Below are positions 17,578-36,993 of a stretch of 36,993 nucleotides of DNA, piece by piece (position 1 is the first letter of the stretch; the number at the start of each line of letters is the position of its first letter). Source of the DNA: Tabrizicola sp. GTDB taxonomy: Bacteria; Pseudomonadota; Alphaproteobacteria; Rhodobacterales; Rhodobacteraceae. The stretch covers positions 1 through 36,993 of the forward strand of contig NZ_JAEULP010000029.1 in NCBI RefSeq assembly GCF_016792905.1. The letters run 5' to 3'. Below the pieces are notes generated by a model. That model was not told the origin of the DNA, ran no database searches, and was given only the letters and a program-made list of their open reading frames with translations. The translations under genes and the position numbers were made by a program.

Positions 17578-17586
17578 GGACATGCG

Positions 17587-17889: not shown

Positions 17890-17899
17890 GAGGTTCCCG

Positions 17900-18451: not shown

Positions 18452-18454
18452 CCG

Positions 18455-19074: not shown

Positions 19075-19083
19075 GAGGTTCCG

Positions 19084-20823: not shown

Positions 20824-20832
20824 AGGCGTGTC

Positions 20833-21381
20833 ATGACCGTTCGGCTGATCAAGCACGCCCCTCCCGTCGCCCATGACCGGGTCGTGCTGGACTACGACCA
20901 GCGGCTCATGCGGCGGAAACTGCTGACCAGCGACGGCGGGCGGTCGTTTCTGGTGGACTTGGCCAGCGTCACCAACCTGGACGATTACTGGGGGTTCGAG
21001 GCCGATGGAATGACCATCGAGATCATCCCCGCGCCCGAGGCTGTGCTGGTGATCACCGGCGACCTTACCCGCCTTGCCTGGCATGTCGGCAACCGGCACA
21101 CGCCCTGCCAGATCCTGCCCGACCGCCTGGTCATCCGCGAGGATCATGTGCTGGAGCGGATGCTTCTGGGCCTTGGCGCCGCGATCCGGCGGGAAAACCT
21201 GCCGTTCAGGCCCGAGGGCGGCGCCTATGGCCATGGCCGGACGATGGGGCATTCGCATGGCGGCGATGATGGGGTGGCGCCCCCCCACCAGACACCGAAG
21301 CCCGAGGAATTCGGCTGGCACCATCACGGCGACGGCAAGCTGCATTTCCACGCACCCCGGCCGCCCAAGGGCGCAAGGTGA
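20833..21381 (+). CDS. ureE: Urease nickel metallochaperone UreE
   Basis: UreE delivers Ni2+ to the UreDFG-urease complex. The 182-aa protein has the N-terminal UreE domain (VVLDYDQRLMRRKLLTSDGG, then FLVDLASVTNLDDYWGFEAD) and the metal-binding C-terminal domain with LAWHVGNRHTPCQIL and DHVLERMLLGLGA. It ends with a His-rich tail (YGHGRTMGHSHGGDDG, WHHHGDGKLHFHA; ten histidines in the last ~55 residues). It follows ureC by 9 bp and overlaps ureF by four bases. Confidence 0.96.
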   Translation: MTVRLIKHAPPVAHDRVVLDYDQRLMRRKLLTSDGGRSFLVDLASVTNLDDYWGFEADGMTIEIIPAPEAVLVITGDLTRLAWHVGNRHTPCQILPDRLVIREDHVLERMLLGLGAAIRRENLPFRPEGGAYGHGRTMGHSHGGDDGVAPPHQTPKPEEFGWHHHGDGKLHFHAPRPPKGAR

Positions 21382-22010
21382 CAGCGCTCCTGACCCTCGT
21401 GCAATGGCTCTCTCCCGCCTTTCCGACCGGGGCCTTCGCATACAGTCACGGGCTTGAACGTGTTATCGCGGCAGGGGACGTGACCAATGCGGCCAGTTTC
21501 GAGGCCTGGCTGCGCAACATCCTGCACCATGGCGCGGGTTGGCAGGATGCGGTGCTCCTGCGCGCCGCCTTGCAGCCTGACGCGGACCACGATGCGCTCG
21601 ATGCCCTGGCGCGGGCGCTCCAACCCTCTTCCGAACGCTTGCAGGAAAGCGCCGAACAGGGCGCGGCTTTGGCCCGAACGGTCGGGGCGCTGACCCGGCG
21701 ACCCCTGCCCCAGCGCCTGCTGCCCGTCGCGGCAGGAGAGGCGGCGACCCCGCTGGGCCTGCCGCCCGCGCAAGTGGCGCAACTTTACCTGCACAGCTTT
21801 GCGGGAAACCTCTGCACCATCGCCACGCGCCACGTCCCCCTTGGCCAGACCGAGGGGCAAGGCAGCCTTTCCCGCCTCTTGCCCGACATCGAAACGCTTG
21901 GCAGCCGCGCGGCAACCTCCACCCTGGATGACCTGGGGAGTTGCGCACTTGCAGCCGACCTTGCCGCCTTCCAGCATGAAACCATAGATGTAAGGATCTT
22001 CCGCACATGA
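21378..22010 (+). CDS. ureF: Urease accessory protein UreF
   Basis: UreF bridges UreD and UreG and acts in GTPase gating during urease activation. The 210-aa sequence has the family start [20 protein letters not shown] and [11 protein letters not shown], then [20 protein letters not shown] and [11 protein letters not shown]. The start codon is GTG at 21378, overlapping the ureE stop as GTGA. The 3' end overlaps ureG as ATGA. Confidence 0.95.
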
Positions 22011-22636
22011 CAACGCATGGCCCCCTCCGCGTCGGCATCGGCGGACCTGTCGGCGCGGGCAAGACCACCCTGACCGAGAAACTCGCCCGTGCCCTTGGCC
22101 CCCGCCTGTCGATGGCGGTGATCACCAACGACATCTACACCCGCGAGGATGCCGAAGCGCTGGTCCGGGCGCAGGTCCTGCCCGCGGCGCGCATCCGGGG
22201 GGTGGAGACCGGCGGCTGCCCGCATACCGCGATCCGCGAGGATGCCAGCATCAACCTCGCCGCCGTCGCCGATCTGAACACAGCCTTCCCCGACCTGGAC
22301 CTGATCCTGATCGAAAGCGGGGGCGACAACCTTGCCGCCACCTTCTCTCCCGAACTCGCCGACCTGACGATCTACGTCATCGACACCGCCGCCGGGCAGG
22401 ACATTCCCCGGAAGCGCGGACCGGGAGTGACGAAGTCTGACTTGCTGGTGGTGAACAAGACCGACCTCGCCCCGCATGTCGGCGTCGACCCGGTGCTTCT
22501 GGAAGCCGACACCGCCCGGGCGCGCGGTACCCGTCCCTATGTCATGGCGCAACTTCGCCACGGCAAGGGCGTGCAGGAGGTGGTGGACTTCATCGTGAAG
22601 CACGGCGGCCTGCGCCTGCGGCCTGACGCGGCCTGA
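22007..22636 (+). CDS. ureG: Urease accessory GTPase UreG
   Basis: UreG is a SIMIBI-class GTPase that carries nickel and powers its insertion. The 209-aa protein has P-loop [11 protein letters not shown] (residues 12-22), the CPH nickel motif in [17 protein letters not shown], the switch-like [17 protein letters not shown] and base-recognition [10 protein letters not shown]. It is the last gene of the urease operon; a strong hairpin follows 22 bases after the stop. Confidence 0.98.
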
Positions 22637-22658
22637 CCTCCGACTCACGGCAAATCCG

Positions 22659-22689
22659 GCGGGCGGAGGGGCAGGACCCTTCCGCCCGC
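22659..22689 (+). terminator. Hairpin after ureG
   Basis: Arms GCGGGCGGA-GGG and CCC-TTCCGCCCGC pair over 12 bp with one bulge, around GGCAGGA. The hairpin lies just downstream of ureG, at the start of the 304-bp ureG-urtA spacer. There is no long T-run. It probably terminates the urease transcript or stabilises its 3' end. I see no other clear element in the remainder of the spacer (22690-22940), which must hold the urtA promoter. Confidence 0.5.
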
Positions 22690-22940
22690 TGCCTTCTCTG
22701 CGGGTCGCTGCCAAGCATCGCAAGCTCCTTTGCATCCGCAGAATGCCCGTTTTCTGCGTCGCAGCAATCAACGCCGCCCAAATTTCAGCCGAAGGAGCGC
22801 AATGGCGTAGACGAGGGCACCGTCGCGCTATGCGCCCCGATGCCGCGCGGCTTTCCTGTTCCATGCCAAGGCCGCTGCCAAGGCCCAAACAGCCAACCAT
22901 GCCCGGGCCAGCCGTGGCCATGACACAGGGGATAGACCAG

Positions 22941-24233
22941 ATGAAACTCACCAGACGCACGCTGCTGACCAGTGCCGCCGCCGCTGCCGCGATGACCCTG
23001 CCGCGCTTCGCCTTCGCCGAAGGCGAGACGATCAAGGTCGGCGTGCTGCATTCGCTGTCGGGAACCATGGCGATTTCCGAGACCACGCTGAAAGACACGA
23101 TGCTGATGCTGATCGAACAGCAGAACGCCAAGGGCGGGCTTCTGGGCAAGCAGCTGGAAGCCGTGGTCGTCGACCCTGCCTCGGACTGGCCGCTCTTCGC
23201 GGAAAAGGCGCGGGAACTGCTGACGGTGGACAAGGTGGACGTGATGTTCGGCTGCTGGACTTCGGTCTCCCGCAAGTCTGTCCTGCCGGTGATCGAGGAG
23301 CTGAACGGGCTTCTGTTCTACCCGGTGCAGTACGAAGGCGAGGAATCGTCGAAGAACGTCTTCTACACCGGCGCCGCGCCGAACCAGCAGGCGATCCCGG
23401 CGGTGGACTATTACCTGGAAGAGCTTGGCGTGCAGAAATTCGCGCTTCTGGGCACCGACTATGTCTATCCGCGCACCACGAACAACATCCTGGAGGCTTA
23501 CCTCATCTCGAAGGGCATTCCGAAGGAAGACATCTTCGTCAACTACACCCCGTTCGGCCATTCCGACTGGTCGAAGATCGTGGGCGACGTGGTGGCGCTT
23601 GGGGCAGACGGCAAGAAGGTCGGCGTCATCTCGACCATCAACGGCGATGCCAACATCGGCTTCTACAAGGAACTGGCGGCTGCTGGCGTCACGGCGGACA
23701 AGCTGCCGGTCGTCGCCTTCTCGGTCGGCGAGGAGGAACTGTCGGGGCTCGACACCTCGAACCTTGTCGGGCACCTGGCGGCGTGGAACTACTTCATGTC
23801 GGCCGATACCCCGGAAAACGCCGCCTTCATCGCCGCCTGGAAAGCCTTCATCAAGGACGACAAGCGCGTCACCAACGACCCGATGGAAGCGCATTACATC
23901 GGCTTCAACATGTGGGTGAACGCGGTCACCGCCGCTGGAACCACCGAGGTTGACGCGGTTTCCGATGCGATGATCGGGCAGAAATTCCCCAACCTCACCG
24001 GCGGCACGGCGGAAATGCTGGCGAACCACCACCTTACGAAGCCTGTCCTGATCGGCGAGATCCGCGCCGACGGCCAGTTCGACATCATCAGCCAGACGGA
24101 ACCCGTGCCCGGCGACGCCTGGACCGACTTCCTTCCGGAATCGGCGGTGCTGGAAGCCGACTGGAAGGACCTGAAATGCGGGATGTACAACAAAGAGACG
24201 AAGACCTGCGTCCAGCTGACCTCGAACTACTGA
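22941..24233 (+). CDS. urtA: Urea ABC transporter substrate-binding protein UrtA
   Basis: This periplasmic binding protein delivers urea to UrtBC. The 430-aa product has a twin-arginine-like signal (MKLTRRTLLTSAAAAAAMTL, cleavage near AFA-EG) and the family sequence: IKVGVLHSLSGTMAISE, FGCWTSVSRKSVLPVIEELN, LLFYPVQYEGEESS, FYTGAAPNQQAIPA and GDANIGFYKEL. The start at ATG 22941 has AGGGGA upstream; the open frame further upstream (from 22743) lacks family similarity. It lies directly after the urease operon, so the uptake and hydrolysis genes are neighbours. Confidence 0.97.
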   Translation: MKLTRRTLLTSAAAAAAMTLPRFAFAEGETIKVGVLHSLSGTMAISETTLKDTMLMLIEQQNAKGGLLGKQLEAVVVDPASDWPLFAEKARELLTVDKVDVMFGCWTSVSRKSVLPVIEELNGLLFYPVQYEGEESSKNVFYTGAAPNQQAIPAVDYYLEELGVQKFALLGTDYVYPRTTNNILEAYLISKGIPKEDIFVNYTPFGHSDWSKIVGDVVALGADGKKVGVISTINGDANIGFYKELAAAGVTADKLPVVAFSVGEEELSGLDTSNLVGHLAAWNYFMSADTPENAAFIAAWKAFIKDDKRVTNDPMEAHYIGFNMWVNAVTAAGTTEVDAVSDAMIGQKFPNLTGGTAEMLANHHLTKPVLIGEIRADGQFDIISQTEPVPGDAWTDFLPESAVLEADWKDLKCGMYNKETKTCVQLTSNY

Positions 24234-24241
24234 CGTGACCG

Positions 24242-24265
24242 GAGGGAGGGGCAACCCCCTCCCTC
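24242..24265 (+). repeat. Stem-loop between urtA and urtB
   Basis: A perfect 10-bp stem, GAGGGAGGGG-CAAC-CCCCTCCCTC, is followed by a pyrimidine-only tract. It starts 8 bases after the urtA stop. Stem-loops here are typical of binding-protein genes that need more product than their permeases: they stabilise the upstream mRNA or partly terminate. The composition resembles the longer palindrome at 26268-26383. Confidence 0.6.
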
Positions 24266-24293
24266 ACCCCCCCCCCTTTCCCCCGGATCATCC

Positions 24294-26231
24294 ATGCGCC
24301 TGACCGCCCTTCTTGTCGCGGCCCTTTGCTGGCTTGCGCCCCTTCCGAGTCTTGCGCAGGAGGCGGCGCGGATCGTGGCCGAACATCGCGACCAGATCGA
24401 AAAGCCCTCGCGCCAGACCATCGGCCCGGTGATCGCCGCGCTGGCGGCCAGTGGCGACCCGATGGCCGACGACATCCTTTCCGCCTGGGAAGACAAGCGG
24501 CTGGTGATCCGCAAGACGGACGGGGCGATGTTCATTGCCGCGCCCGACGGCGACGGTTTCGCCCTGACCGCCCTTGACGGGACAGCCGCCGGACGCGCCG
24601 CCAAGGCCGACCTCACCGAGTTGAAACCCAACGCCGGGGTGCGCGCGTTGATCGCGACCGCGCTGGTGCAGTTCACCTTGTCGGACCCCGATCCCGAAAA
24701 GCGACGGGCCGCGCTCGCCTCCATCGCGCAGGACCCGACCGCCGAGGCGCTGGAGCCCCTGCGCGCGGCGATTGCCACCGAGGATGATCCCGCCCTGAAG
24801 GCCCAGAAGCAGCGGCTGGAGCGCCTGCTGACCCTGCGCTTCGATCCCGACAGCGCGGCGCGCGTGGCCGCCATCGACAGCTTCGGTGCCGACCTTGGCC
24901 TTGACCTGCGCGGGGCGCTGAACCCGCTGGTGGCAACGACGCGCGTCGCTTCGGCCACACCGCCAGAGGCCAACATCGCCCGCGAGTTGCGCCTTGGCAC
25001 CGACATCCCCGAGGACGAGGCCTATGGTCTTCTGGTCGCGGCGAAGCTTGCCCCTGCGCGCCTGACGCTTGAGGAACAGCGGGCGGCCCTGCTGGCGAAC
25101 CTGAAGGACGGGGCCGTGGGCGGCGTGCCGGTCGTCGAACTGGGAAGCCAGGATGCCCGCGACCGCGCCTATACCGCGCTGGAGGCCAGCGGAGCCGTCC
25201 CCGCCGCCGCCACGGATGACGAGGCCAAGGCGGCGCTGGCTTCGGCCAAGTTCTACGAAATCTACGCCGAACCCGCCCCCGCCGTGACCGACGCCGCCGA
25301 GGCCGCGCTGGCGCGGATCGACACCAAGGTCGGCGCGATGCAGGCTGCGGACCTTGGGCTCGATGCCCTCTCGCTCGCCTCGATCTACTTCCTTGCCGCC
25401 ATCGGCCTTGCCATCACCTTTGGCGTCATGGGCGTGATCAACATGGCGCATGGCGAGTTCATCACCATGGGCGCCTATACCGGCTATGTCGTCCAGCTCT
25501 ACGTTCCGGACTACACCGCCTCGATCCTGATCGCGCTGCCGCTGGCCTTTGCCGTCACCTTCGCCGCCGGCGTGGCGCTGGAGCGGCTGGTGATCCGCCA
25601 CCTCTACAAACGCCCGCTGGAAACGCTGCTGGCAACGTTCGGCATCTCCATCGCCTTGCAACAACTCTTGAAGAACATCTTCGGCACCCAGGCCCGGCCC
25701 CTGACCGCACCGGGCTGGCTCGACGGGGCACTTGCCATCAACGACGTGGTCTCGATCAGCTACATCCGCATCGCGATCTTCGTGCTGGCGCTTCTGTTCC
25801 TGGGCGTCTTCTTCTGGCTGATGAAGCGCACGCGCCTTGGCCTTGAAGTCCGTGCCGTGACCCAGAACCCGGCGATGGCGGCCAGCATGGGGATCAACCC
25901 CGACCGGATCAACATGCTGACCTTCGGCATCGGGTCGGGCATCGCCGGGATCGCCGGGGTCGCCATCGGGCTTTTCGCCAAGGTCACGTCCGAGCTGGGC
26001 ACCGACTACATCGTGCAAAGCTTCATGACCGTGGTCGTGGGCGGGGTCGGCAACATCTGGGGCACGCTGGCCGGGGCGACGATGATCGGCGGGCTGCAAA
26101 AGGTGATCGAGTTCTTCAACCCCTCGAACACGCTGGCAGCCCAGACCTACATGATCCTGTTCATCATCCTGTTCATCCAGTTCCGGCCAAGGGGCATCAT
26201 TGCCCTGCGTGGCCGCGCGGCGGGGGATTGA
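24294..26231 (+). CDS. urtB: Urea ABC transporter permease UrtB
   Basis: This LivH-like inner-membrane permease of the urea importer has 645 aa. It has a signal peptide (MRLTALLVAALCWLAPLPSL, cleavage after LAQ), then about 320 residues of helical, Ala/Leu/Glu-rich sequence (residues 25-345) likely in the periplasm. The membrane part starts near residue 355: LASIYFLAAIGLAITFGVMG, VINMAHGEFITMGAYTGY, VRAVTQNPAMAASMGI, VVVGGVGNIWGTLAGA. UrtB proteins typically carry a signal peptide and such an extension; this one is on the long side. There is no good ribosome site before the ATG. The stop at 26231 precedes a palindromic element. Confidence 0.95.
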   Translation: MRLTALLVAALCWLAPLPSLAQEAARIVAEHRDQIEKPSRQTIGPVIAALAASGDPMADDILSAWEDKRLVIRKTDGAMFIAAPDGDGFALTALDGTAAGRAAKADLTELKPNAGVRALIATALVQFTLSDPDPEKRRAALASIAQDPTAEALEPLRAAIATEDDPALKAQKQRLERLLTLRFDPDSAARVAAIDSFGADLGLDLRGALNPLVATTRVASATPPEANIARELRLGTDIPEDEAYGLLVAAKLAPARLTLEEQRAALLANLKDGAVGGVPVVELGSQDARDRAYTALEASGAVPAAATDDEAKAALASAKFYEIYAEPAPAVTDAAEAALARIDTKVGAMQAADLGLDALSLASIYFLAAIGLAITFGVMGVINMAHGEFITMGAYTGYVVQLYVPDYTASILIALPLAFAVTFAAGVALERLVIRHLYKRPLETLLATFGISIALQQLLKNIFGTQARPLTAPGWLDGALAINDVVSISYIRIAIFVLALLFLGVFFWLMKRTRLGLEVRAVTQNPAMAASMGINPDRINMLTFGIGSGIAGIAGVAIGLFAKVTSELGTDYIVQSFMTVVVGGVGNIWGTLAGATMIGGLQKVIEFFNPSNTLAAQTYMILFIILFIQFRPRGIIALRGRAAGD

Positions 26232-26267
26232 GGGCATGGTCACGATCACGACGTTCGGTAGTGGGCA

Positions 26268-26383
26268 CCTCCCCTCCCCCGCGTGGGGATGGGATGGGGG
26301 CGGGGGGACCGCCGCTTGCAAAGCGCCCAACACCCCGTCCGGGAGCCCCCCCACCCCATCCCTCCCCCACAGGGAGGGGAGGG
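26268..26383. repeat. Long imperfect palindromic element between urtB and urtC
   Basis: The left arm (26268-26307) and right arm (about 26347-26383) pair as two blocks. Outer CCTCCCCTCCCC pairs with GGGAGGGGAGG, and inner GTGGGGATGGGATGGGG with CCCCATCCCTCCCCCAC, with few mismatches. The ~40-bp central part holds a small hairpin CGCTT-GCA-AAGCG. Such GC-rich intergenic palindromes are dispersed in Rhodobacteraceae genomes, so this may be a copy of a REP-like family. It fills most of the 201-bp urtB-urtC gap. Confidence 0.7.
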
Positions 26384-26432
26384 ACGCTCTCGGTTCGTCG
26401 CAGTCGCTATCGTCAATCAGCCGGGTGGCGCG

Positions 26433-27650
26433 ATGACCATTTTGCACCCCCGCCACCGCTCCGCCCTCGTCTTCCTCGCCTGCCTCGCGCTCTTCACCAT
26501 CGGCGTGACTGTCGCCGCGCATTTCGGCCTTGTCTCCACGTCCTTCGTGAAGACTCTGGGCAAGACGCTCTGCCTCTGCCTCGCCGCGCTGGCGATGGAC
26601 CTGATCTGGGGCTACGCAGGTATCCTCTCTCTCGGCCACATGGCCTTCTTCGCGCTTGGTGGCTACATGATCGGCATGTGGCTGATGTATGCCCGGACCG
26701 AGGAGATCGTCATCGCTTCCCTCGCGAATGGCGGTCTGCCCGCAACGCCCGAGGAGATCAGCCAGGGCATCGCCACCCAGATCTTCGGCGTCGTCGGCGC
26801 CTCGTACCTGCCCGCGATCTGGTCCTTTGCCTACAGCCTGCCCCTGCAACTGGCTCTGGTCGTCGCCGTCCCCGGCCTCCTCGCCCTTGTGTTCGGCTGG
26901 CTCGCTTTCCGCAGCCGCGTCACCGGGGTCTACCTGTCGATCCTGACCCAGGCGATGACCCTCGCCCTCGCGCTCTACCTCTTCCAGAATGATTCCGGCC
27001 TGCGCGGGAACAACGGACTGTCCGGGCTTCAGAACCTGCCAGGCATCACGGCCGGGCAGGATACGGTCAGCCTGTGGTTCTTCTGGGCTTCGGCGCTTGC
27101 CCTTGCGCTGGCCTATGTCGCGCTCCACGCCATCGTCTCGGGCAAGTTCGGCTCGGTCATCCGCGCGATCCGGGATGACGAGGCGCGCGTGCGGTTCCTT
27201 GGATACTCGGTCGAGGGCTACAAGCTTTTCGTCTTCACCCTGACCGCCGTGATCTGCGCGTTGGCCGGGGCGCTGTATTACCCGCAAGCCGGGATCATCA
27301 ACCCTGCGGAACTCGCCCCCATCGCAAGCATCTACCTTGCCGTCTGGGTCGCCATCGGCGGACGCGGCAGGTTGTACGGAGCGGTCATCGGCGCGGCCCT
27401 CGTCTCGCTTCTGTCCAGCTGGTTCACCGGCGGGCGGGTGCCGTCCATTCCCCTCGGCTTCGCCACGATCAACTGGGTCGACTGGTGGCAGGTGCTGCTG
27501 GGCCTCACCTTCGTCGGCGTGACGCTGTTCGCTCCAAAGGGCATCGGCGGATTGTTCGACCACTTCACCGGATCGCACCCTCCCGATCGCAAGGGCGCGC
27601 CGCTCGGCCCTGATGACGGATCGCTGCGGGAGAGGGAGGCCGAGGCATGA
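26433..27650 (+). CDS. urtC: Urea ABC transporter permease UrtC
   Basis: This is the second, LivM-like permease of the urea importer (405 aa). Markers are ALAMDLIWGYAGILSLGHMA, FFALGGYMIGMWLMY, the EAA-like loop AIRDDEARVRFLGYSVEGYK, and ALYYPQAGIINPAELAPIAS. The start is taken at ATG 26433 (MTILHPRHRSALVFL), after a weak GGGTGG; the frame is open farther upstream through the palindromic element but that part is not protein-like. The end overlaps urtD by four bases. Confidence 0.96.
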   Translation: MTILHPRHRSALVFLACLALFTIGVTVAAHFGLVSTSFVKTLGKTLCLCLAALAMDLIWGYAGILSLGHMAFFALGGYMIGMWLMYARTEEIVIASLANGGLPATPEEISQGIATQIFGVVGASYLPAIWSFAYSLPLQLALVVAVPGLLALVFGWLAFRSRVTGVYLSILTQAMTLALALYLFQNDSGLRGNNGLSGLQNLPGITAGQDTVSLWFFWASALALALAYVALHAIVSGKFGSVIRAIRDDEARVRFLGYSVEGYKLFVFTLTAVICALAGALYYPQAGIINPAELAPIASIYLAVWVAIGGRGRLYGAVIGAALVSLLSSWFTGGRVPSIPLGFATINWVDWWQVLLGLTFVGVTLFAPKGIGGLFDHFTGSHPPDRKGAPLGPDDGSLREREAEA

Positions 27651-28390
27651 GCGCGCTTCTGGAGGTTTCCGGCGTAACGGTCAGCTTCGACGGCTTCCGC
27701 GCGATCAACAACCTGACCTTCGCCATCGGGGCGGCGGAGCTGCGCGCGATCATCGGACCGAACGGGGCGGGGAAAAGCACGTTCATGGACATCGTCACCG
27801 GCAAGACGAGGCCCGACAGCGGGTCGGTGACTTTCGGCGAACGCCCCGTATCGCTGCTGAAACTCTCCGAGGCACAGATTGCCCGCGCCGGGATCGGACG
27901 CAAGTTCCAGCGCCCCACGGTGTTCGAGGACCAGACCGTGCAGGAAAACCTGACGCTTGCCCTGAAGGCCGGGCGTGGCCCCCTCGCGGTGCTGCGCTGG
28001 CGCAAGTCGGCCGCGGACGAGGCGCGGGTCGCGGAGCTTGCCGGGCAGGTCGGCCTTGGCGACAGCCTGACGAAAAAGGCCGGCATCCTCAGCCACGGGC
28101 AGAAGCAATGGCTGGAAATCGCGATGCTCCTGGCGCAGGAGCCCCGCCTGCTGCTGGTCGACGAACCGGCGGCCGGGATGACGCTGGCAGAACGGGAAAA
28201 GACGACTGAGCTGCTGGTCGAGATTGCGAAGACCCGGGCCGTTGTCGTGGTGGAACACGACATGGACTTTGTCCGCCGCCTGAGCTGCAAGGTCACGGTG
28301 CTGCACGAAGGCGCTGTGCTGGCCGAAGGCAGCCTCGACCATGTCACCAGGAACCAGTCGGTGATCGACGTCTATCTGGGGCGCGGATGA
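27647..28390 (+). CDS. urtD: Urea ABC transporter ATP-binding protein UrtD
   Basis: A LivG-like ATPase of 247 aa. Walker [10 protein letters not shown] (Lys43), signature [13 protein letters not shown] (from 148, the UrtD variant of LSGGQ), Walker [12 protein letters not shown] (Asp172-Glu173) and the switch His in [11 protein letters not shown] are all present. The start overlaps the urtC stop (ATGA) and its own stop overlaps urtE, so urtCDE form a coupled block. Confidence 0.96.
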
Positions 28391-29085
28391 TGCTGAGGAC
28401 GGAAGGCCTGACGCTGCACTACGGCGGATCGCAGATCCTGCATGGCATTGAATTCGAGGCGAAGGCGGGAGAGGTCACCGTCATCATGGGAACGAACGGC
28501 GTGGGCAAGACCAGTTTCCTGAAGGCGCTGGCGGGCACGCATCCCCGGTCGGGCGGGACGGTCACGCTCGACGGCGAGAGCCTGGGCCGCCTGCCCGCGC
28601 AGGACATGGCGCGGCGCGGGCTGGCAGTGGTGCCGCAGGGGCGGATGATCTTTCCGCTCCTGACCGTGCGCGAGAACCTTGAGACGGGCTTTTCCCTGCT
28701 TCCGAAGTCGCAGCGCAGGGTGCCGGACGGCATCTACGACCTGTTCCCGGTCCTGAAGGACATGACCAACCGTCGCGGGGGCGACCTGTCGGGCGGGCAG
28801 CAGCAGCAGCTTGCCATCGCCCGGGCGATGATCATGAAGCCCAAGGTCCTGCTGCTGGACGAACCGACCGAAGGCATCCAGCCTAGCATCATCCAGCAGA
28901 TCGGCCGGGTGATTGCCTGGCTCAAGAGTGAGGGCGGAATGGCAATCGTGCTGGTTGAACAATATTTCGACTTCGCCCACGGTCTTGCCGATCAGGTCTA
29001 TGTCTTCCGGCGCGGCGCCGTGTCTGCGCATGGCACGAAGGACAGCTTCGACAAGGCCACCCTGCGGGCCGAGGTTTCTGTCTGA
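28387..29085 (+). CDS. urtE: Urea ABC transporter ATP-binding protein UrtE
   Basis: A LivF-like ATPase of 232 aa that pairs with UrtD. It has Walker [10 protein letters not shown] (Lys41), the family stretch [20 protein letters not shown], signature [15 protein letters not shown], Walker [15 protein letters not shown] and switch [10 protein letters not shown]. Two ATGs are adjacent (28387, 28390); the first overlaps the urtD stop. It ends the urea transport operon; downstream sequence is largely degraded. Confidence 0.96.
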
Positions 29086-29363: not shown

Positions 29364-30030
29364 TCAACCTGGGTTGCGGTCGCGGTTCTGACCTCTTGCC
29401 ATCCTGGTGAGCAAGTGGTCGGCAATAGGCCCCATGAAGGCCACCGCCAGACCCAGCACCAACCCCTTTCCGACATCCGTCGAAGACAGCGCGCGCTGCA
29501 TTTCCTGGCCGAGGTCCCGGGTGCCGACGAAGGCTGCGACGATGACCATGAACAACGAGAACATGATCGACTGGTTGGCCCCCACGACCAGCGTCGGCAC
29601 GGCCAGGGGCAGCTTCACATGCCAGAGCGGCGGCGCCGGGCCTGCCCCCGACATCTGCGCCGATTCCACCATCTCGGGCGGAATGTTGCGCAGGCCCAGA
29701 AGCGTCATGCAGATCACTGGCGGAACCGAGAAGATCAGCGTCACGACGGCGCCCGTCTTGGAGCCGACGCCGATGAAGACCACGACCGGGATCAAATAGG
29801 CGAAATGCGGCAGCGACTGCGCGATGTTCAGGATCGGGTTCAGGATGCGTTCGCCAAGGCGCGAGCGCCAGGCGAGCGTGACGAGAGCGAGGCCCGGGGC
29901 AACGGAAAGGGGGCGGCCACGACGATGACCGACAGCGTCTCCATCGCCCATTTCCACTGGCCCATGACGGCGATCCAGACGAAGGTCCCGGCAGATAGCG
30001 CCGCCGCCATCATGCCGCAGGCCCAAGCAG
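29364..30030 (-). pseudogene. ProW-like betaine/proline ABC permease remnant, 5'-truncated and frameshifted
   Basis: The long downstream part is a good ProW-type permease: LAWRSRLGERILNPILNIAQ, SLPHFAYLIPVVVFIGVG, ICMTLLGLRNIPPEMVESAQ, GANQSIMFSLFMVIVAAFVG, then a normal-looking end at 29364. The upstream part (ACGMMAAALSAGTFVWIAVM, GQWKWAMETLSVIVVAA) is also ProW-like but lies in a different frame. The two frames differ by two bases (compare ATG at 30010-30008 with the stop at 29366-29364). The shift falls near 29905-29915 in a C/T-run. The true N-terminus is missing because an upstream deletion fuses it to the ProV remnant. It is unlikely to be functional. Confidence 0.85.
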
Positions 30031-30381
30031 AAGGTCGAGCGCCGCCTTGCGGTCAAGAAGCCCGACAAGCTCCAGCACCTCCCGCGCCCGGGCGATGCGC
30101 GCAGCGCGATCCTGGCCGCGCATTTCCAGCGGGAAGGCCTTGATGTCGAGCAGCCGCGCCAGGCAGCGGACCAGGGTCGACTTGCCCGACCCCGACAGCC
30201 CCATGACCACCAGCATCTCGCCGCGCCGGATGTCGAGCGATACGTCCCGGACGGCAGCGATGTGACTGGTGGCGCGCAAGTCCTCCATCGTCGTCGCCGA
30301 AGAAAGGCGCAAGCGTTCGGGATGGTCGCCGAATACCTTCCAGACAATCCCGCACGACATCGCCACGTCGCTCGGGGTCAA
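30031..30381 (-). pseudogene. ProV-like ABC ATPase remnant with internal deletion and lost 3' half
   Basis: The N-terminal part is clearly ProV-like (GIVWKVFGDHPERL, VRDVSLDIRRGEMLVVMGLS and GSGKSTLVRCLARLLDI, including Walker A). It then jumps in frame, near 30135-30150, from LLDIKA straight to FPLEMRGQDRAARIARAREV, omitting the ~60-70 residues with the Q-loop that normally lie between. After ELVGLLDRKA the sequence leaves the family and runs into the permease remnant. So the signature, Walker B and any CBS domains are missing. Two deletions plus the neighbours' frameshifts mark it as dead. Confidence 0.85.
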
Positions 30382-30849: not shown

Positions 30850-30985
30850 CTGGTTGACGGGGTGATCCTCGACCACCAGCACCTTCAGGGGTGGCAGATC
30901 GGGCGCAGCACCGATCCGCGGACAAGGGGAAGCTGCAAGGTGAATGTCGTGCCGCACTCCGGCTGGCTTTCCGCCGTCACGCAGA
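30850..30985 (-). pseudogene. Hybrid histidine kinase fragment (minus strand)
   Basis: The minus strand reads VTAESQPECGTTFTLQLPL, the typical end of a kinase HATPase_c domain (usually ES.PG.GTTFTL.LPL). After a frame change it reads LPPLKVLVVEDHPVNQ (to 30850), the start of a receiver domain with its acidic pair. It stops where the opposite-strand receiver fragment begins. Its 5' end runs into the 3' end of the LysR gene. It is a relic of a two-component system. Confidence 0.7.
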
Positions 30986-31888
30986 GACGGGAGCGTGTTC
31001 CGCTTGAATTTGCGCGCTTATCCAGTGCCACAGGGCGGCGACAGGCGGGCGGGAAAAATTCCGCGTCCAACAGGACATGTAGAGCGGGATTGACCGATCA
31101 AGCGACGGTCGTGCGGCATGGACCAGTTTTCCTTCCCTCAAGGCATGCTCGGCCTGGCGCGCCGAGGCAAGGCAGATCCCGTACCCAAGCATTGCCGCCT
31201 GCAACATCTGACCGGTGTCGGAAAAGTTGAAGCCGCGGGAAAGCTCCGACCGGGTCGAGCCGACCTGCGCGAACCACGACTGCCAGTCGTTCAGCGTTTC
31301 ATCGTGCAGAAGCGGAGCCTCGTCCAGCCGGGCGCTGTCAGGCAGATCGGGCAGGCTTGCGGCCAGGCCTGGGGCGCAGAGCGGCATCAGCCGGTCACTT
31401 GCCAGCAGGACTGATCGTGCGCCAGCATCGGCCCAGGGTCGTGGACCGAGGACGATATCGATCTCGGCTTCCTCCGGGACATGGGTGTCGTCACTGGTAT
31501 GCACCCAGGGGTCAACCCAGGGATGGGCTGCACGCAGATCCGCAAGGCGCGGCAGGAACCAGCCCGAGGCCAGCGCGGCGGGCATCAGGATGATCACCGA
31601 TCCCGGCTTGGAGTAGGCGTTCAGGCGGCGGACGCCGTGGCGCAGCTCTTCCAGTGCCGCATGGACCGTGATCAGGAAATCACGGCCCGCGTCTACCAGC
31701 TCGATCCGGCGTCCGATCCGGCGAAAGAGCGGCTGGCCAAGGTGGTCTTCCAGCACCCGCACCTGATGGCTGATCGCAGACTGGGTGATGTTCATCTCTT
31801 CCGCCGCACGCGAAAAGCTTTGCAGCCGTGCGGCGGCTTCAAAGCCGATAAGGGTGCTGAGTGGTGGAAGGTTGCGATAGGTATTCAT
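30977..31888 (-). CDS. LysR-family regulator (GcvA-like)
   Basis: The 303-aa protein has the GcvA-type N-terminus NLPPLSTLIGFEAAARLQSF, winged HTH FSRAAEEMNITQSAISHQVR and VLEDHLGQPLFRR (residues 5-60), then an effector domain from about residue 90. It starts 93 bp from aguA on the opposite strand, so it is the best candidate regulator of the agmatine genes. An imperfectly centred dyad CTTTC-GATT-GAAAG lies in the spacer. The gene is intact although its 3' end abuts the decayed kinase fragment. The effector could be agmatine or a related amine; that is inference. Confidence 0.9.
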   Translation of the reverse strand: MNTYRNLPPLSTLIGFEAAARLQSFSRAAEEMNITQSAISHQVRVLEDHLGQPLFRRIGRRIELVDAGRDFLITVHAALEELRHGVRRLNAYSKPGSVIILMPAALASGWFLPRLADLRAAHPWVDPWVHTSDDTHVPEEAEIDIVLGPRPWADAGARSVLLASDRLMPLCAPGLAASLPDLPDSARLDEAPLLHDETLNDWQSWFAQVGSTRSELSRGFNFSDTGQMLQAAMLGYGICLASARQAEHALREGKLVHAARPSLDRSIPLYMSCWTRNFSRPPVAALWHWISAQIQAEHAPVSA

Positions 31889-31981: not shown

Positions 31982-33016
31982 ATGACCCGCCACGACCCCG
32001 CCCGCTTCGCCGCCAGCCCCAGATCGCTTGGCTACCGGATGCCCGCCGAATATGCTCCTCACAAGCGGACCTGGATGATGTGGCCGACCCGCGCCGAGGT
32101 CTGGCCGGACATGTCGGCCACCAAGCGGGACTATGTGAAGGTGGCGCGGGCGATCGCCGAGTTCGAACCCTTGTGCATGGCGGTCTGCCCGGAAGACGCC
32201 GCCGAGGCGCGGGCGATGCTGGGCAACGGGATCGAGCTTTTCGAAGTGCCGCTGGACGACAGCTGGGCACGCGATGCCGGACCGAATTTCGTGGTGGATG
32301 GCAAGGGCGGCAAGGCGGCGAGCCTGTTCACCTTCTCGGCCTGGGGGCACAAATATGCGCCTTTCGACAAGGACGCAGCCTTTGGTGCGGCGGTGGCGGC
32401 GCGCGAAAGGATGCCGGTGTTCAAGTCGCCGCTGCTGGCTGAAGGCGGCGGGGTGACGGTCGATGGCGAGGGTACGATCATCACCACCGACACCTGTTTC
32501 CTGAACAAGAACCGCAACCCGTCCTGGACGCGGGAGGAAGTCACCCGCGAGCTACTGGAAACCCTGGGCGGCGAAAAGGTGATCTGGCTGCCGGGGAACG
32601 CGGATGAAACCGAGACCGATGGCCATGTCGATGGCATCGCCGTCTTCGTGGCCCCCGGCGTGGTGCTGATCGAGGGCGCGGATGACCCGGCCGATCCGTG
32701 GCGCCACATCAAGCAAGCCAACATCGACGCGCTTCGTGGCCAAACCGATGCGAAGGGGCGCGAAATCCGCATGGCGACGATCCCCGAGGCCGAGGAAAGC
32801 TGCGTCATCGGCGACAGGTTCTGCCGGTCCTATGTCAACTGCTACTTCGTCAACGGCGGGGTGATCATGCCCGAATACGGTACGCCGAACGACTCCGTCG
32901 CGCGGCAGGTCTTTCAGGACCTGTTCCCGACCTGCCGCATCCGCGGCGTGCATATCCCCAACATCTGCCTTGGCGGCGGCGGCATCCACTGCATCACCCA
33001 GCAGGAACCGGCATGA
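31982..33016 (+). CDS. aguA: Agmatine deiminase
   Basis: AguA converts agmatine to N-carbamoylputrescine and ammonia. The 344-aa protein has the family hallmarks: MPAEYAPHKRTWMMWPTR, DDSWARDAGPNFVVDGKG, LAEGGGVTVDGEGT, ETDGHVDGIAVF (His215, Asp217) and the nucleophile in CLGGGGIHCITQQEPA (Cys337). The start at ATG 31982 has GGAGGA eight bases upstream; the open frame upstream overlaps the LysR promoter and is not coding. Its stop overlaps the next gene (ATGA). AguB is encoded nearby on the other strand. Confidence 0.96.
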   Translation: MTRHDPARFAASPRSLGYRMPAEYAPHKRTWMMWPTRAEVWPDMSATKRDYVKVARAIAEFEPLCMAVCPEDAAEARAMLGNGIELFEVPLDDSWARDAGPNFVVDGKGGKAASLFTFSAWGHKYAPFDKDAAFGAAVAARERMPVFKSPLLAEGGGVTVDGEGTIITTDTCFLNKNRNPSWTREEVTRELLETLGGEKVIWLPGNADETETDGHVDGIAVFVAPGVVLIEGADDPADPWRHIKQANIDALRGQTDAKGREIRMATIPEAEESCVIGDRFCRSYVNCYFVNGGVIMPEYGTPNDSVARQVFQDLFPTCRIRGVHIPNICLGGGGIHCITQQEPA

Positions 33017-33345
33017 CCGCGCTGCCGCCCGCGGCCTTTGCCGTGACGGGGGCCATGGGTCGGCACGTCACGGCCACAATGGAGCATTTCGGGACCTCCT
33101 GCCTGTCGGACCGCGAGGCAGAAGTGGCCCGGCTGATCCTGCGTGGCCATTCCTCGAAGGTGATCGCGCGGATGCTGGGCAACAGTCCCGAAACGGTGAA
33201 GGTGTTCCGCAAGCGCATCCACACCAAACTGGGGCTTGCCTCTTCGGCAGAGTTGTTCACGCTGTTTCTTGCGGCGCTCTGTGCCGCACCCCACGGCACC
33301 ACTGACGACCCGCTGATCCACCTGTCCTGGGGATTTGTGGAATGA
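33013..33345 (+). CDS. Solo LuxR/GerE-type helix-turn-helix protein
   Basis: The 110-aa protein consists of about 30 non-conserved residues and one LuxR-type HTH (residues 31-87: LSDREAEVARLILRGHSSKV, IARMLGNSPETVKVFRKRIH, TKLGLASSAELF). There is no receiver or autoinducer domain. The HTH carries the standard core (LSxRExEV, G.S.K.IA, TVK..R..I..KLG). It lies between two deiminase genes with 4-nt overlaps on both sides, so it is translated with them. It may regulate the agmatine cluster, with its signal unknown. It could also be the surviving C-terminal part of a larger regulator, but the tight junctions argue against recent truncation. Confidence 0.85.
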   Translation: MTALPPAAFAVTGAMGRHVTATMEHFGTSCLSDREAEVARLILRGHSSKVIARMLGNSPETVKVFRKRIHTKLGLASSAELFTLFLAALCAAPHGTTDDPLIHLSWGFVE

Positions 33346-34442
33346 TGACTCGTCGGTCCCTTTTCCGGTCTGCTGCCGCTGCCGGCGGCGCTTCCCTGTT
33401 GCCACGCCGGGCCTTCGCCGCCACCTCTGCCCGCGCCGCCGGTTTCCGGTATCCCGAAGAGACCGATCCACACGAGCGGACCTTCATGCAATGGCCGGTC
33501 AATCACAGGGTCCATGACGACGCCGATTTCCTGCATGACCTGCAAGGCACGATCTCCGAGATCGCCAACACGATCGCCGGGTTCGAACCCGTGGTGGTGC
33601 TGGCTGCCGCCGAGCATCACAAGGCGATCCGCAAGCGGGTCTCGGGTCAGGTCGAATTGTGGGACATCCCGACCGACGACCTGTGGTGCCGCGATTCCGG
33701 GCCGTCCTTCGTGGTTGACGGCAAGGGTGGTCTTGCGGTGACCCAGTTCAACTTCAACGGCTGGGGCGGCAAGCAGGTCCACGGCAATGACGGCAGGATT
33801 GCCGCGCGGCTGGCCGAACGGCTGGGCCTGACCGTCTTCGATGCCGGGCTGGTGGGCGAGGCTGGCGGCGTCGAGACCGACGGCCACGGCACGCTGATCG
33901 CCCACGAAAGCACCTTCATCAACCCCAACCGCAACAAGGGGTCAAAGGAGGATATCACGGCGATGCTTCTTGAAACCATGGGGGCGCAGCAGATGATCTG
34001 GGCGCCGGGGATCAAGGGCGCCGACATCACCGACTATCACATCGACGCACTGGCCCGTTTCGTGAAGCCGGGGCAGGTGCTGATCCAGATGGGCGCGGAG
34101 ATCGACCCCGAGGACCCCTGGTCGGTCGCGGCGTTTGAAACCCACGACATCCTCTCTGCGGCCACCGATGCCGAGGGCCGCACGCTCGACCTGGTGATCC
34201 TGCCCGAACCCTGGGACATCCGTGTCGACAGCCCGGATTTCGTGTCGTCCTACGTCAATTACTATGTCTGCAATGGCGGCGTGATCGCGGCCCAGTTCGG
34301 CGACGAGGAAGCCGATTCCGAGGCCGCGGCGATCCTTGGCGCGCTTTACCCGGGCCGCGAAATCGTCATGCTGAACATCGATACTGTGGGCGAAGTGGGG
34401 GGCGGCATCCACTGCGCTACCCATGAGCAACCGAAAGTGTAA
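33342..34442 (+). CDS. Agmatine/peptidylarginine deiminase paralogue with Tat-like signal
   Basis: This 366-aa deiminase-fold protein begins MMTRRSLFRSAAAAGGASLL and PRRAFAATS, a twin-arginine-like export signal with cleavage near AFA. The mature part has DDLWCRDSGPSFVVDGKG, GEAGGVETDGHGTLIAHEST, ITDYHIDALARFV (His233, Asp235) and EVGGGIHCATHEQPKV (Cys358). The catalytic Cys/His/Asp set is therefore conserved. It differs from AguA in much of the rest, e.g. GGKQVHGNDGRIAARLAERL. It probably acts in the periplasm on agmatine, another guanidino compound or peptidyl-arginine; the substrate is open. The start overlaps the HTH gene by four bases. Confidence 0.88.
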   Translation: MMTRRSLFRSAAAAGGASLLPRRAFAATSARAAGFRYPEETDPHERTFMQWPVNHRVHDDADFLHDLQGTISEIANTIAGFEPVVVLAAAEHHKAIRKRVSGQVELWDIPTDDLWCRDSGPSFVVDGKGGLAVTQFNFNGWGGKQVHGNDGRIAARLAERLGLTVFDAGLVGEAGGVETDGHGTLIAHESTFINPNRNKGSKEDITAMLLETMGAQQMIWAPGIKGADITDYHIDALARFVKPGQVLIQMGAEIDPEDPWSVAAFETHDILSAATDAEGRTLDLVILPEPWDIRVDSPDFVSSYVNYYVCNGGVIAAQFGDEEADSEAAAILGALYPGREIVMLNIDTVGEVGGGIHCATHEQPKV

Positions 34443-34445
34443 GGC

Positions 34446-34889
34446 TTGCGCGACTGGCTGATCCGGAACTCCGAACCCCTGCAGGCCGTAGGCGCCATCG
34501 CCACGGCCTTCGCCGCTTTGACCGCGCTGGTGGTGATCCCCTATCAGGTGGGGCAGGCCGACCGGATCCAGCGCGACCAGACCGCGCGCGAGATCTACCG
34601 GGAATTCCTGAACCTGACCGTGCAGAAGCCGGAACTGGCGACGGCGGATTACTGCACCCTGACCGATCCCAAAAGCCTGGCCGCCTATTCGGCCTATGCC
34701 GATTACCTGCTTTATACCGCCGACCAGATGGTCGACACCTCGCCGACCTGGCGCGGAACCATGGCGAGCTATCTCAAATCCCACATGGCCTATCTATGCA
34801 GCCCTGAACTCCGCGAGGCCAATGATGATGTGGAAGGCCTGATCGCGGACCTCGGGCTGACCTGTAAACCCGAGAACCAGTGCCAGTAG
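34446..34889 (+). CDS. Small membrane-anchored protein of unknown function
   Basis: A 147-aa protein starts TTG three bases after the deiminase stop. One hydrophobic helix (about residues 12-36, AVGAIATAFAALTALVVIPY) is followed by a predicted helical, soluble part with QRDQTAREIYREFLNLTVQK and YADYLLYTADQMVDTSPTWR and two cysteines near the end (TCKPENQCQ). I do not recognise a family; similar one-helix proteins occur beside unrelated genes in proteobacteria. No strong ribosome site is seen, so translation is probably coupled to the deiminase. Confidence 0.72.
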   Translation: MRDWLIRNSEPLQAVGAIATAFAALTALVVIPYQVGQADRIQRDQTAREIYREFLNLTVQKPELATADYCTLTDPKSLAAYSAYADYLLYTADQMVDTSPTWRGTMASYLKSHMAYLCSPELREANDDVEGLIADLGLTCKPENQCQ

Positions 34890-34908
34890 GGGCGACTTTC
34901 GCCGCCCC
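34889..34908. terminator. Hairpin at convergent gene ends
   Basis: GGGGCG-N8-CGCCCC forms a 6-bp stem in the 27-bp gap between the convergent membrane protein and aguB stops; its first base is the last base of the upstream stop codon. It could serve both strands. There is no clear T-run on either side. Confidence 0.4.
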
Positions 34909-34916
34909 GTTCCGCT

Positions 34917-35783
34917 TCACGCCGCCTCGTGGCGGGCGATCAGCCCATAGGCCTCCGGCCGCCGGTCGCGCCAGGTGCCCCAGCTTTGGCGATAGGCGCG
35001 GGTGGCGTCGAGGTCGATCCTTGCCGTCAAGTAGGTCTCATCCACCCGGTTCGCCTCGGCCAGCATCGCGCCGGTATGATCCGCGATGAAGGAGGAGCCG
35101 TAGAAGGTCATCTCCAGGTTCGGCCCCTTCTCCAGCCCCACCCGGTTCGACGCGACGACCGGCACCATGTTGGCTGCCGCATGACCCTGCATGGTGCGCT
35201 GCCAGTGCCCCGCGCTGTCGAAGTCGGGCTGGCCCGGTTCCGACCCGATCGCGGTCGGGAACAGCAGTACCTCGGCCCCCAGAATGGCCAGCGAGCGGGC
35301 GGTTTCCGGGAACCACTGGTCCCAGCAGATGCCGCAGCCGACCCGGGCGAACCGGGTGTCGAAGACCTTGAAGCCGGTATCGCCGGGGGTGAAGTAGTAT
35401 TTCTCCTCATAGCCCGTCGCGTGCGGGATATGGGTCTTGCGGTAGCTGCCGAGGACCGTGCCATCCGCGTCGATCATCGCCAGCGAGTTGAAGAAGGTGT
35501 TCCCCGCCGCCTCGTAGTAGCTGATCGGCAGCACCACCCCCAGCTTGCGTGCCAAGACCGCGAAATGCTGCACGGCGCGGTCGGCGGCCAGCGGCTTGGC
35601 ATATTGCTGAAAGCCGCTGTCCTTCTCGATGCAGAAATAGGGGGTCTGGAACAGTTCCTGCAACAGGATGACCTGCGCCCCGTCCTCGGCCGCCGCCGTC
35701 ACCTGTTCCTCGGCCTTCTGGATGTTCTCGTCCAGATCCCAGGAACAGGCCATCTGGGTGGCGGCCACAGTCACGAATGCCAT
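34917..35783 (-). CDS. aguB: N-carbamoylputrescine amidase
   Basis: AguB, a nitrilase-superfamily enzyme, hydrolyses N-carbamoylputrescine to putrescine, CO2 and ammonia, the step after AguA. The 288-aa protein has the Glu-Lys-Cys triad: LLQELF (Glu43), YRKTHIP (Lys116), GCGICWDQWFPE (Cys153), and the family stretch HATGYEEKYYFTPGDTGF. It is preceded by a polyamine-binding protein with an 11-bp gap, so uptake and conversion are probably co-transcribed. It converges with the aguA operon. Confidence 0.96.
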   Translation of the reverse strand: MAFVTVAATQMACSWDLDENIQKAEEQVTAAAEDGAQVILLQELFQTPYFCIEKDSGFQQYAKPLAADRAVQHFAVLARKLGVVLPISYYEAAGNTFFNSLAMIDADGTVLGSYRKTHIPHATGYEEKYYFTPGDTGFKVFDTRFARVGCGICWDQWFPETARSLAILGAEVLLFPTAIGSEPGQPDFDSAGHWQRTMQGHAAANMVPVVASNRVGLEKGPNLEMTFYGSSFIADHTGAMLAEANRVDETYLTARIDLDATRAYRQSWGTWRDRRPEAYGLIARHEAA

Positions 35784-35794
35784 GGATTGTCCTT

Positions 35795-36805
35795 TCAGTT
35801 CATCAGCTTGGTCCAGACCTTGTCCACCAGGGCCGTGGCCTCGGGCGAGCAGGTCGGGATAAATTCGGGCGCCGGCGCGTCGGCAGGCGGGGTGATTTCA
35901 GGGGCATTGGCAAGGGCCGGGTCGATGAAGGCTTCGGACCCTTTGATCCCGTTGCCATAGCGGGCATAGGTCGTGACCATCGCCGCGTTTTCCGGTGCCA
36001 TCATGAAGTTGAGGAAAGCCTTGGCATTGTCGAGGTTCGGCGCGCCCTTGGCGACGGCCAGATTGTCCATCCAGCCGGTGTAGCCTTCCTTGGGGTAGAC
36101 GTATTGCAGCGTCGGGCGTTCCTCGCGGGCGCGCATCGCATAGCCGTTCCAGCCCATCGAGACGACGGCTTCGCCCGAAACCAGCGGCTCCTTGAATTCG
36201 GAATCGTAGCTTTTGACCCAGTCCTTCTGGGTCTCCAGCAGCTCCAGCACGCGCTTCATGTCCTCGGGATTTTCATTGCAGCGCGGGACGCCCAGATAGC
36301 GCTCGGCCATGTTGATGACATCGTTCATGTCGCGCAGCATGTTGATGCGGCCCTTCACCTCGTCGCCGGGCGCGAAGAGGACCGCCAGCGAGCTGTAGTC
36401 GCCCTTGACGACGGCGGTATCGACCACCACGCCGGTCGACCCCCAGGCCCAGGGCGCGGAGTATTCGCGCTTGGGGTCCCAATAGACCCCGCGCCAGCGT
36501 TCATCGACATTGGCGAAGTTCGGCATGGCGAAGACGTCGACCTTTTCCAGCATGCCTTCGGCGATCAGCACCTGCATCGTGGCGTCGCCCACGACCAGAA
36601 TGTCATAGCCGGTGGCACCGGACCGCAGCTTGGCGATCATCGTCTCCATGCTGTCGAACGTGTCGATGTTGATCCTCGTCCCGGTCTCGGCCTCGAACTT
36701 CGCCACCAGGTCGGGTGGGGTGTATTCGCCCCAGGTGTAGATGTTCAGATCACCTTCGGCCAGGGCGGGTGTGACGGTGAGAAGCAGGACGGCAAGCGCG
36801 CGCAT
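35795..36805 (-). CDS. Polyamine ABC transporter substrate-binding protein (PotD/PotF family)
   Basis: The 336-aa periplasmic binding protein has a signal peptide (MRALAVLLLTVTPALA) and the PotD/F start DLNIYTWGEYTPPDLVAKFE, the hinge GYDILVVGDATMQVLI, the inner strands WAWGSTGVVVDTAVV and GEAVVSMGWNGYAMRA, and a late DNLAVAKGAPNLDNAKAFLN. The substrate may be putrescine, spermidine or agmatine; the context (aguB downstream, aguA nearby) suggests agmatine or putrescine, by inference. It follows an ABC permease gene by 11 bp. Confidence 0.92.
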   Translation of the reverse strand: MRALAVLLLTVTPALAEGDLNIYTWGEYTPPDLVAKFEAETGTRINIDTFDSMETMIAKLRSGATGYDILVVGDATMQVLIAEGMLEKVDVFAMPNFANVDERWRGVYWDPKREYSAPWAWGSTGVVVDTAVVKGDYSSLAVLFAPGDEVKGRINMLRDMNDVINMAERYLGVPRCNENPEDMKRVLELLETQKDWVKSYDSEFKEPLVSGEAVVSMGWNGYAMRAREERPTLQYVYPKEGYTGWMDNLAVAKGAPNLDNAKAFLNFMMAPENAAMVTTYARYGNGIKGSEAFIDPALANAPEITPPADAPAPEFIPTCSPEATALVDKVWTKLMN

Positions 36806-36816
36806 GGGACTTCCTT

Positions 36817-36993
36817 TCAGCGTTTGTTGCGGGCGATGAGGGCAGAGGTGATGACGACAAGCGCCGAGGCCGCGACCATCAGCGAGGACACCGCGTTGAC
36901 CTCGGGCGTGATGCCAAGGCGCAGCATCGAATAGATATGGACCGGCAGCGTGGTCGATCCGGGGCCGGAGAGCATGGACGAGATGATGAAATC
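36817..36993 (-). CDS. ABC transporter permease (PotC-like), only the C-terminus in the window
   Basis: The last 58 residues of a permease run up to the window edge. DFIISSMLSGPGSTTLPVHI and YSMLRLGITPEVNAVSSLMV match the end of PotC/PotI-type permeases (usual DFxISxFxxGPGSTTLP). A final hydrophobic helix and a basic tail (ARNKR) follow. It lies upstream of the binding-protein gene in the same operon; the rest of the transporter must lie beyond the window. Confidence 0.9.
   Translation of the reverse strand, partial: DFIISSMLSGPGSTTLPVHIYSMLRLGITPEVNAVSSLMVAASALVVITSALIARNKR

Follow-up and report, generated by a model that had tools for sequence, protein, structure and literature searches.

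The DNA considered here is a stretch of 36,993 nucleotides from Tabrizicola sp. (Rhodobacteraceae; contig NZ_JAEULP010000029.1, assembly GCF_016792905.1), and we refer to the whole of it as the window. Toward its 3' end lies a locus for agmatine use in which aguA, the gene for agmatine deiminase, is followed by three tightly packed genes. These encode a small helix-turn-helix (HTH) protein, a second deiminase whose N-terminus resembles a twin-arginine translocation (Tat) signal, and a membrane protein with a single long helix. The last two may form a periplasmic module built into the locus, in which the membrane protein would act as partner to an exported enzyme. The features of the locus are as follows (E denotes expectation value).

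30977..31888, minus strand: LysR-type regulator, divergent from aguA (Pfam LysR_substrate and HTH_1)
31982..33016, plus strand: aguA, agmatine deiminase without an export signal (PAD_porph, 353 bits; AguA-like group in the tree)
33013..33345, plus strand: 110-aa GerE (LuxR-type) DNA-binding protein without a sensor domain (Pfam GerE)
33342..34442, plus strand: PAD_porph deiminase with a Tat-like N-terminus, Agu2A'-like (Pfam, alignment, tree)
34446..34889, plus strand: one-helix membrane protein with four conserved cysteines, putative partner of the exported deiminase (TTG start; no family match)
34889..34908, no strand: small G+C-rich hairpin between convergent genes, a possible shared terminator lacking a T run
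34917..35783, minus strand: aguB, N-carbamoylputrescine amidase (TIGR03381, 448.3 bits, cut-off 410.25)
35795..36805, minus strand: PotD/PotF-type polyamine-binding protein of an ATP-binding cassette (ABC) transporter (SBP_bac_8; PotD model E 3.8e-45, below the equivalog cut-off)
36817..36993, minus strand: 3' end of a probable ABC transporter permease gene, cut at the window end (assigned from the gene order at the related locus L053)

The coordinates confirm the packing behind aguA that the first-pass annotation of this DNA had described: aguA overlaps the HTH gene by 4 nt (33013-33016), the HTH gene overlaps the deiminase gene by 4 nt (33342-33345), and the one-helix gene opens at a TTG at 34446 after a gap of 3 nt. 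Ratios of nonsynonymous to synonymous substitution (dN/dS) are low among five close orthologues (0.12-0.20 for the HTH protein, 0.11-0.13 for the deiminase and 0.07-0.28 for the one-helix protein), so the three genes are real and not chance reading frames. The aguB and PotD-type genes converge on the aguA cluster; the hairpin between them is weak (fold -13.1 kcal/mol, z -1.93, with 11 of 200 shuffles folding equally well). At L053 two BPD_transp_1 permease genes follow potD, at L034 an ABC ATPase gene lies further along, and the LysR gene occupies the same place at L052, L053, L054, L073, L076 and L081. The two deiminase genes of the locus are the only PAD_porph genes in the window genome, an assembly about 93% complete. 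Another AguB above the curated cut-off is encoded elsewhere in that genome (G000:C14:45978-46811), and genomes G165 and G658 likewise have two.

The second deiminase matches PAD_porph (PF04371) over the whole model (positions 1-321 of 321) at 314.7 bits against a cut-off of 25, and carries the motifs GGIHC, TDYHID, DDLWCRD and NGWGG. With the plant agmatine deiminase MtAIH as guide, for which PMC6447857 gives residue roles, the alignment bears out the intact catalytic Cys, His and Asp noted in the first pass and shows the substrate-channel Trp and Asp to be conserved too. Neither window deiminase reaches the cut-off of the AguA equivalog TIGR03380 (381.8): the second scores 225.6 bits and AguA itself 324.9. 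A tree of 66 of 73 proteins, unrooted and with some long branches, resolves three supported groups, namely AguA-like, Pseudomonas-type Tat and window-type Tat enzymes (five rows that were fragments or broken, and two distant ones, were left out). The window's two deiminases share about 41% identity and belong to different groups, and we rejected a plain duplication of aguA.

Tat signals pair a twin arginine with a following hydrophobic stretch. The N-terminus of the second deiminase, MMTRRSLFRSAAAAGGASLLPRRAFA, has RR at residues 4-5 and, after it, a stretch rich in Ala and then AFA; by eye it resembles such a signal, and the twin arginine is kept in relatives from other genera. A crude test for RR plus a hydrophobic stretch, from which four fragments were left out, is passed by 47 of 50 Tat-group relatives and by none of 19 AguA-like proteins.

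There is a precedent for such an enzyme. The Pseudomonas aeruginosa protein Agu2A' (PA14_48450) is listed among experimentally identified Tat substrates in PMC6085387, and an annotated P. aeruginosa plasmid encodes, in a row, LysR, agmatine deiminase, aguB, an extracellular solute-binding protein and a second agmatine deiminase that starts with the signal peptide printed there for Agu2A'. The order lysR-aguA-aguB-binding protein-deiminase recurs at five Pseudomonas loci (L083, L084, L087, L088, L091). The window locus has LysR, AguA, AguB, a solute-binding protein and a Tat-signal PAD_porph deiminase in common with agu2ABCA', and its deiminase shares 42.6% identity with the annotated plasmid copy across residues 38-366. 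Because Agu2A', a known Tat substrate, sits in a near-identical gene set, we place the window's second deiminase as a putative Tat enzyme, Agu2A'-like in kind as judged from sequence. The two systems nevertheless differ: gene order and strands are not the same, with aguB and potD on the other strand in the window; the HTH gene and the one-helix partner belong to the window only; permease genes follow the binding protein in the window's relatives; and in the unrooted tree the Tat deiminases of the window type and those of the Pseudomonas type fall into two supported groups. The original agu2ABCA' paper is reportedly Williams et al. 2010 (Mol Microbiol 76:104). An exported deiminase is thus already known in kind from Pseudomonas, and the first-pass proposal of an undescribed functional unit gives way to this published precedent. 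In searches of the open-licence literature we found no published description of the partner family, of its exchange between enzyme types, of a distribution independent of AguA and AguB, or of the sensor-less HTH protein.

A scan of genome contigs for the window deiminase returned 41 loci, mostly in Rhodobacterales and Rhizobiales, with others in, for example, Diaphorobacter, Asaia, Pseudomonas and Luteibacter; the scan used short exact patterns of the window protein and is biased to close relatives. Gene neighbours vary widely between loci. Any deiminase match, AguA included, occurs in 21 of 149 genomes of the family and in 5 of 32 of the window genus, where a close one is found only in the window and G165 (86%). 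We picked 14 carriers, comprising near-full-length matches of at least 48% identity and four genomes from the partner-profile search described below, and excluding the G105 fragment along with matches at a greater distance. The exported deiminase is the sole PAD_porph protein in 11 of the 14. Four have an AguB over the curated cut-off, three of them with aguA also in the cluster, and the family background for AguB is 13 of 120. Neither another PAD_porph protein nor an AguB over the NCBIfam cut-off is present in 10 of the 14, a count that does not cover alternative amidases such as AguY, an N-carbamoylputrescine amidase according to PMC12283126.

The AguA-AguB route of agmatine breakdown is named for its two enzymes. 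The window has both, with AguB over the NCBIfam cut-off, and adds to them a second, exported-type deiminase; since 10 of the 14 picked carriers have neither another PAD_porph gene nor an AguB over cut-off, the exported enzyme is probably not simply a helper of that route. Outside the window clade it seems mostly to work without AguA and AguB. The first-pass suggestion of an exported deiminase outside the plain route holds up as far as this distribution goes, while export itself is a prediction. In a tblastn search of 72,556 plasmid records, deiminase relatives appear in 68, all below 60% identity. Two relatives are plasmid-borne, one at L156 (Phaeobacter porticola pP97_b) and one at L157 (P. 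aeruginosa NZ_CP131792.1, inside a complete agu2-type operon); their plasmids are typed as mobilizable and conjugative, so these genes can move.

The one-helix gene lies immediately 3' of the deiminase gene at 17 of the 41 loci. Spacing falls between -4 and +3 nt in 17 of 19 measured pairs, across Rhodobacterales and Rhizobiales and among differing neighbours; the two exceptions (L060, L089) have broken frames, L066 is cut at a contig end, and L034 and L052 come from one genome. Distances between deiminases correlate with those between partners (r 0.96 for the 19 pairs, 0.80 for the 15 closer pairs), and 2000 permutations gave no correlation as high. Of the 27 members aligned, 26 have four cysteines; the alignment leaves out duplicates and the broken or cut copies L060, L089, L120 and L066, and the exception, the distant L118, is missing three of the four. 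A structure model (mean predicted local distance difference test score, pLDDT, 83.6) shows about 8 residues, one long helix at 9-60 and a helical domain. The model matches no solved structure at E <= 0.001, and the family profile none below E 0.28. The window protein matches no Pfam or NCBIfam family; DUF6082 (PF19560) gives a weak match in 4 of 17 members (best E 0.021, not significant) and none for the window protein. Judging from the cysteines and the enzymes beside it, the cysteine domain would be periplasmic, and its cysteines might hold a metal in place of forming disulfides.

The partner profile matches 15 of 394 genomes in the family, and the genes beside these matches extend the picture beyond deiminases. 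The partner adjoins an exported deiminase in six genomes (G000, the window genome, and G658, G123, G599, G801 and G682), G599 having in addition the distant relative L118, and G075 keeps a decayed copy beside its deiminase. In four further genomes (G097, G775, G797, G778; loci L049, L113, L114, L116) it lies directly upstream of an FAD amine oxidase with a twin-arginine N-terminus, at spacings of 2, 9, -4 and -4 nt. Two of these oxidases receive the Amino_oxidase Pfam call and the other two were found by similarity; the nearest solved structures to that of G097 are LSD1, spermine oxidase and polyamine oxidases, and the four enzymes are possibly periplasmic polyamine oxidases. None of the four genomes has a PAD_porph gene. 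In G615 the partner adjoins, twice (L119, L120), a DUF4344 putative metallopeptidase with a signal-like N-terminus, the second partner copy being broken. The G568 match is a fragment. The partner's enzyme neighbours fall into three unrelated families, all with N-termini like export signals. We suggest, stopping slightly short of expecting it, that the partner, as its first member to be described, belongs to an exchangeable family of membrane-anchored periplasmic adaptors that dock onto exported enzymes breaking down polyamines or guanidines (the Tat deiminase and the Tat amine oxidase), and perhaps onto an exported metallopeptidase.

A class-wide search of 385 genomes gave, besides the window, two weak partial partner matches, in G075 and G207. 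G207 belongs to another family; there, the closing part of a deiminase of the window type (residues 316-366, at 57% identity) stands just before a decayed one-helix gene (L124), which we read as the remnant of a deiminase/partner pair outside the window's family. A tblastn search of the 72,556 plasmid records with the one-helix protein found none at E 1e-5, yet the decayed G075 copy appears to be located on one.

The HTH protein has a more restricted distribution. The first-pass annotation treated it as one member of a trio, and the neighbourhood check does not support a general block: it joins the deiminase/one-helix pair only in the window and at 5 of the 41 loci, every one with aguA. GerE covers residues 30-83 only (50.4 bits, cut-off 23.5), and the N-terminal sensor domain of LuxR-type regulators is absent from the protein. 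Among its matches, for 8 of which frames were read, the domain makes up the C-terminus of frames that run to about 290-316 aa (L129 to L132); L128 is an interrupted frame of 161 aa and L133 is cut at a contig end. The C-terminal DNA-binding domains of the Rhodobacterales regulators L129, L130 and L131 are 48-54% identical to the window protein, which lacks their sensor part and is plausibly a LuxR-type regulator cut down to its DNA-binding domain. It is not decaying, since its dN/dS indicates purifying selection. At the Ruegeria locus L076 a broken N-terminal regulator piece lies between aguA and the deiminase gene (E 1e-11 and 48.5 bits to L130, against 25 bits for the best of 200 shuffles). 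The simplest history is that a full-length regulator once stood here, of which the window clade lost the sensor part and Ruegeria the DNA-binding end.

With moderate confidence, a little better than even, we propose the following mechanism as a whole. An agmatine-use locus of LysR, AguA, AguB and a PotD-type ABC transporter would have taken in a two-gene periplasmic module. The deiminase would fold in the cytoplasm, be exported by the Tat pathway and, once in the periplasm, deiminate agmatine or a related guanidine, releasing ammonia and the corresponding ureido product. In its partner a short N-terminal tail would be followed by a single membrane helix and then by a helical domain in the periplasm, probably held by disulfide bonds; the partner would keep the enzyme at the outer face of the inner membrane or stabilise it there. 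The PotD-type transporter of the window could then import the product for AguB to finish, while in most other examined carriers the pair, or the enzyme alone, would work without AguB. The small HTH protein would be a sensor-less LuxR-type regulator, and we consider LysR the likelier agmatine-responsive switch.

Several observations weigh against this mechanism. The Tat-like signal called in the first pass stands by eye and by the conserved twin arginine in relatives, whereas numerical signal models miss the window protein: Pfam TAT_signal gives only 10 bits against a cut-off of 22.7, and the crude test fails on it, its hydrophobic stretch being under threshold. The partner is not strictly required, being absent from 24 of the 41 loci (five of them with less than 450 nt of downstream sequence), and its pairing on the tree implies 8 gains or losses. 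The correlation of distances also fits shared species history alone, the charges flanking the partner helix do not settle its topology, and in G779 and G145 the partner has no such enzyme neighbour. Residues near the catalytic His, discussed next, could point to a substrate other than agmatine.

One alternative is that agmatine is not the substrate of the exported deiminase, which would instead act on arginine, guanidinobutyrate, peptidyl-arginine or some other guanidine, its position beside aguA being secondary in the window clade. The residue immediately before the catalytic His (His-1) is Gly in all 19 AguA-like rows, while the 45 window-type rows have Tyr (41), Asp (3) or Phe (1), and the 6 Pseudomonas-type rows Ala. 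Four residues before the His (His-4), where Asp220 of MtAIH binds the amine of agmatine according to PMC6447857, all 51 Tat rows have Ile or Val; the window Tat enzyme has Ile at His-4 and Tyr at His-1, and window AguA has Glu and Gly. Taken as a mark of agmatine deiminases, an acid at His-4 is missing from the window Tat enzyme. The mark is itself imperfect, with 9 of the 19 AguA-like rows lacking the acid, having Gly or Met, or being uncertainly aligned; L092, a Pasteurellaceae protein with a twin-arginine N-terminus, has Ile at His-4 and Gly at His-1. The Tat enzymes have an Asp one position ahead of His-4, a pattern shared by the Pseudomonas cytoplasmic enzymes, with Met at His-4, and this Asp may serve in place of the residue that binds the amine. 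The 10 carriers with neither another PAD_porph protein nor an AguB over cut-off also favour another guanidine, as does the small effect of agu2ABCA' on agmatine levels reported among the papers PMC6085387, PMC4287709 and PMC4211729. Solved structures speak for agmatine: enzymes named as agmatine deiminases match at E 1e-45 to 1e-39, compared with 6e-4 for the Porphyromonas gingivalis peptidylarginine deiminase, and the AguB count leaves out other N-carbamoylputrescine amidases such as AguY. On balance we regard another guanidine as unlikely, at a level that still deserves attention. Peptidylarginine deiminase was rejected as first-choice identity on that P. gingivalis match; the best structure match, 1xkn (E 3e-47), is a 'putative' peptidyl-arginine deiminase by name only.

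The remaining alternatives concern the proteins on either side of the enzyme. Rather than tethering it, the one-helix protein might restrain the exported enzyme or shield the cell's own membrane from it, as an inhibitor or protector. Such a role would suit a small protein with four conserved cysteines that stands one-to-one with three kinds of enzyme, its gene often overlapping theirs or lying a few nucleotides away. The 24 loci without the partner would be unexpected for a needed protector, however, and a deiminase that releases ammonia presumably has no obvious toxicity, so that we hold this role to be quite improbable. We give still less credence to the trio as a sensing unit, in which the deiminase product or the membrane protein would signal to the small HTH protein, which in turn would switch genes. 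Purifying selection on the HTH protein and its place within the operon in the window and at five loci are compatible with that idea. Against it, the protein has no sensor domain of any kind and corresponds to the C-terminal end of longer LuxR-type regulators; Ruegeria keeps the pair with only a broken N-terminal remnant of such a regulator, other scanned carriers show no HTH match, and only about 8 residues of the one-helix protein precede its long helix. The link from product or signal to the HTH protein put forward in the first pass accordingly finds no basis in the sequence, and an agmatine-use locus with a built-in periplasmic deiminase and membrane partner is the reading we retain.

The surroundings of the locus also concern nitrogen. 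Positions 16765-29085 hold urease genes (UreD at 16765-17577) and, after them, genes for a urea-type ABC transporter (with a Peripla_BP_5 protein at 22941-24233); these two proteins were the ones scanned, and the region forms a nitrogen-scavenging neighbourhood adjoining the agmatine locus. Between the urea-type transporter genes and lysR, at 29364-30381 on the minus strand, an ABC transporter has left remnants, probably pseudogenes, in which a permease domain and part of an ATPase occupy different frames that overlap.

The interest of the locus lies chiefly in the membrane partner, the exported deiminase itself being known in kind. Relatives of a little-known exported agmatine-type deiminase, until now linked to biofilms of P. 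aeruginosa, are here placed in many alphaproteobacteria; of the carriers examined, most lack the remaining genes of the agmatine route. The results also add a conserved membrane partner that is directly testable. If the partner is indeed a general adaptor for exported polyamine enzymes, it would provide a handle on polyamine breakdown outside the cytoplasm.

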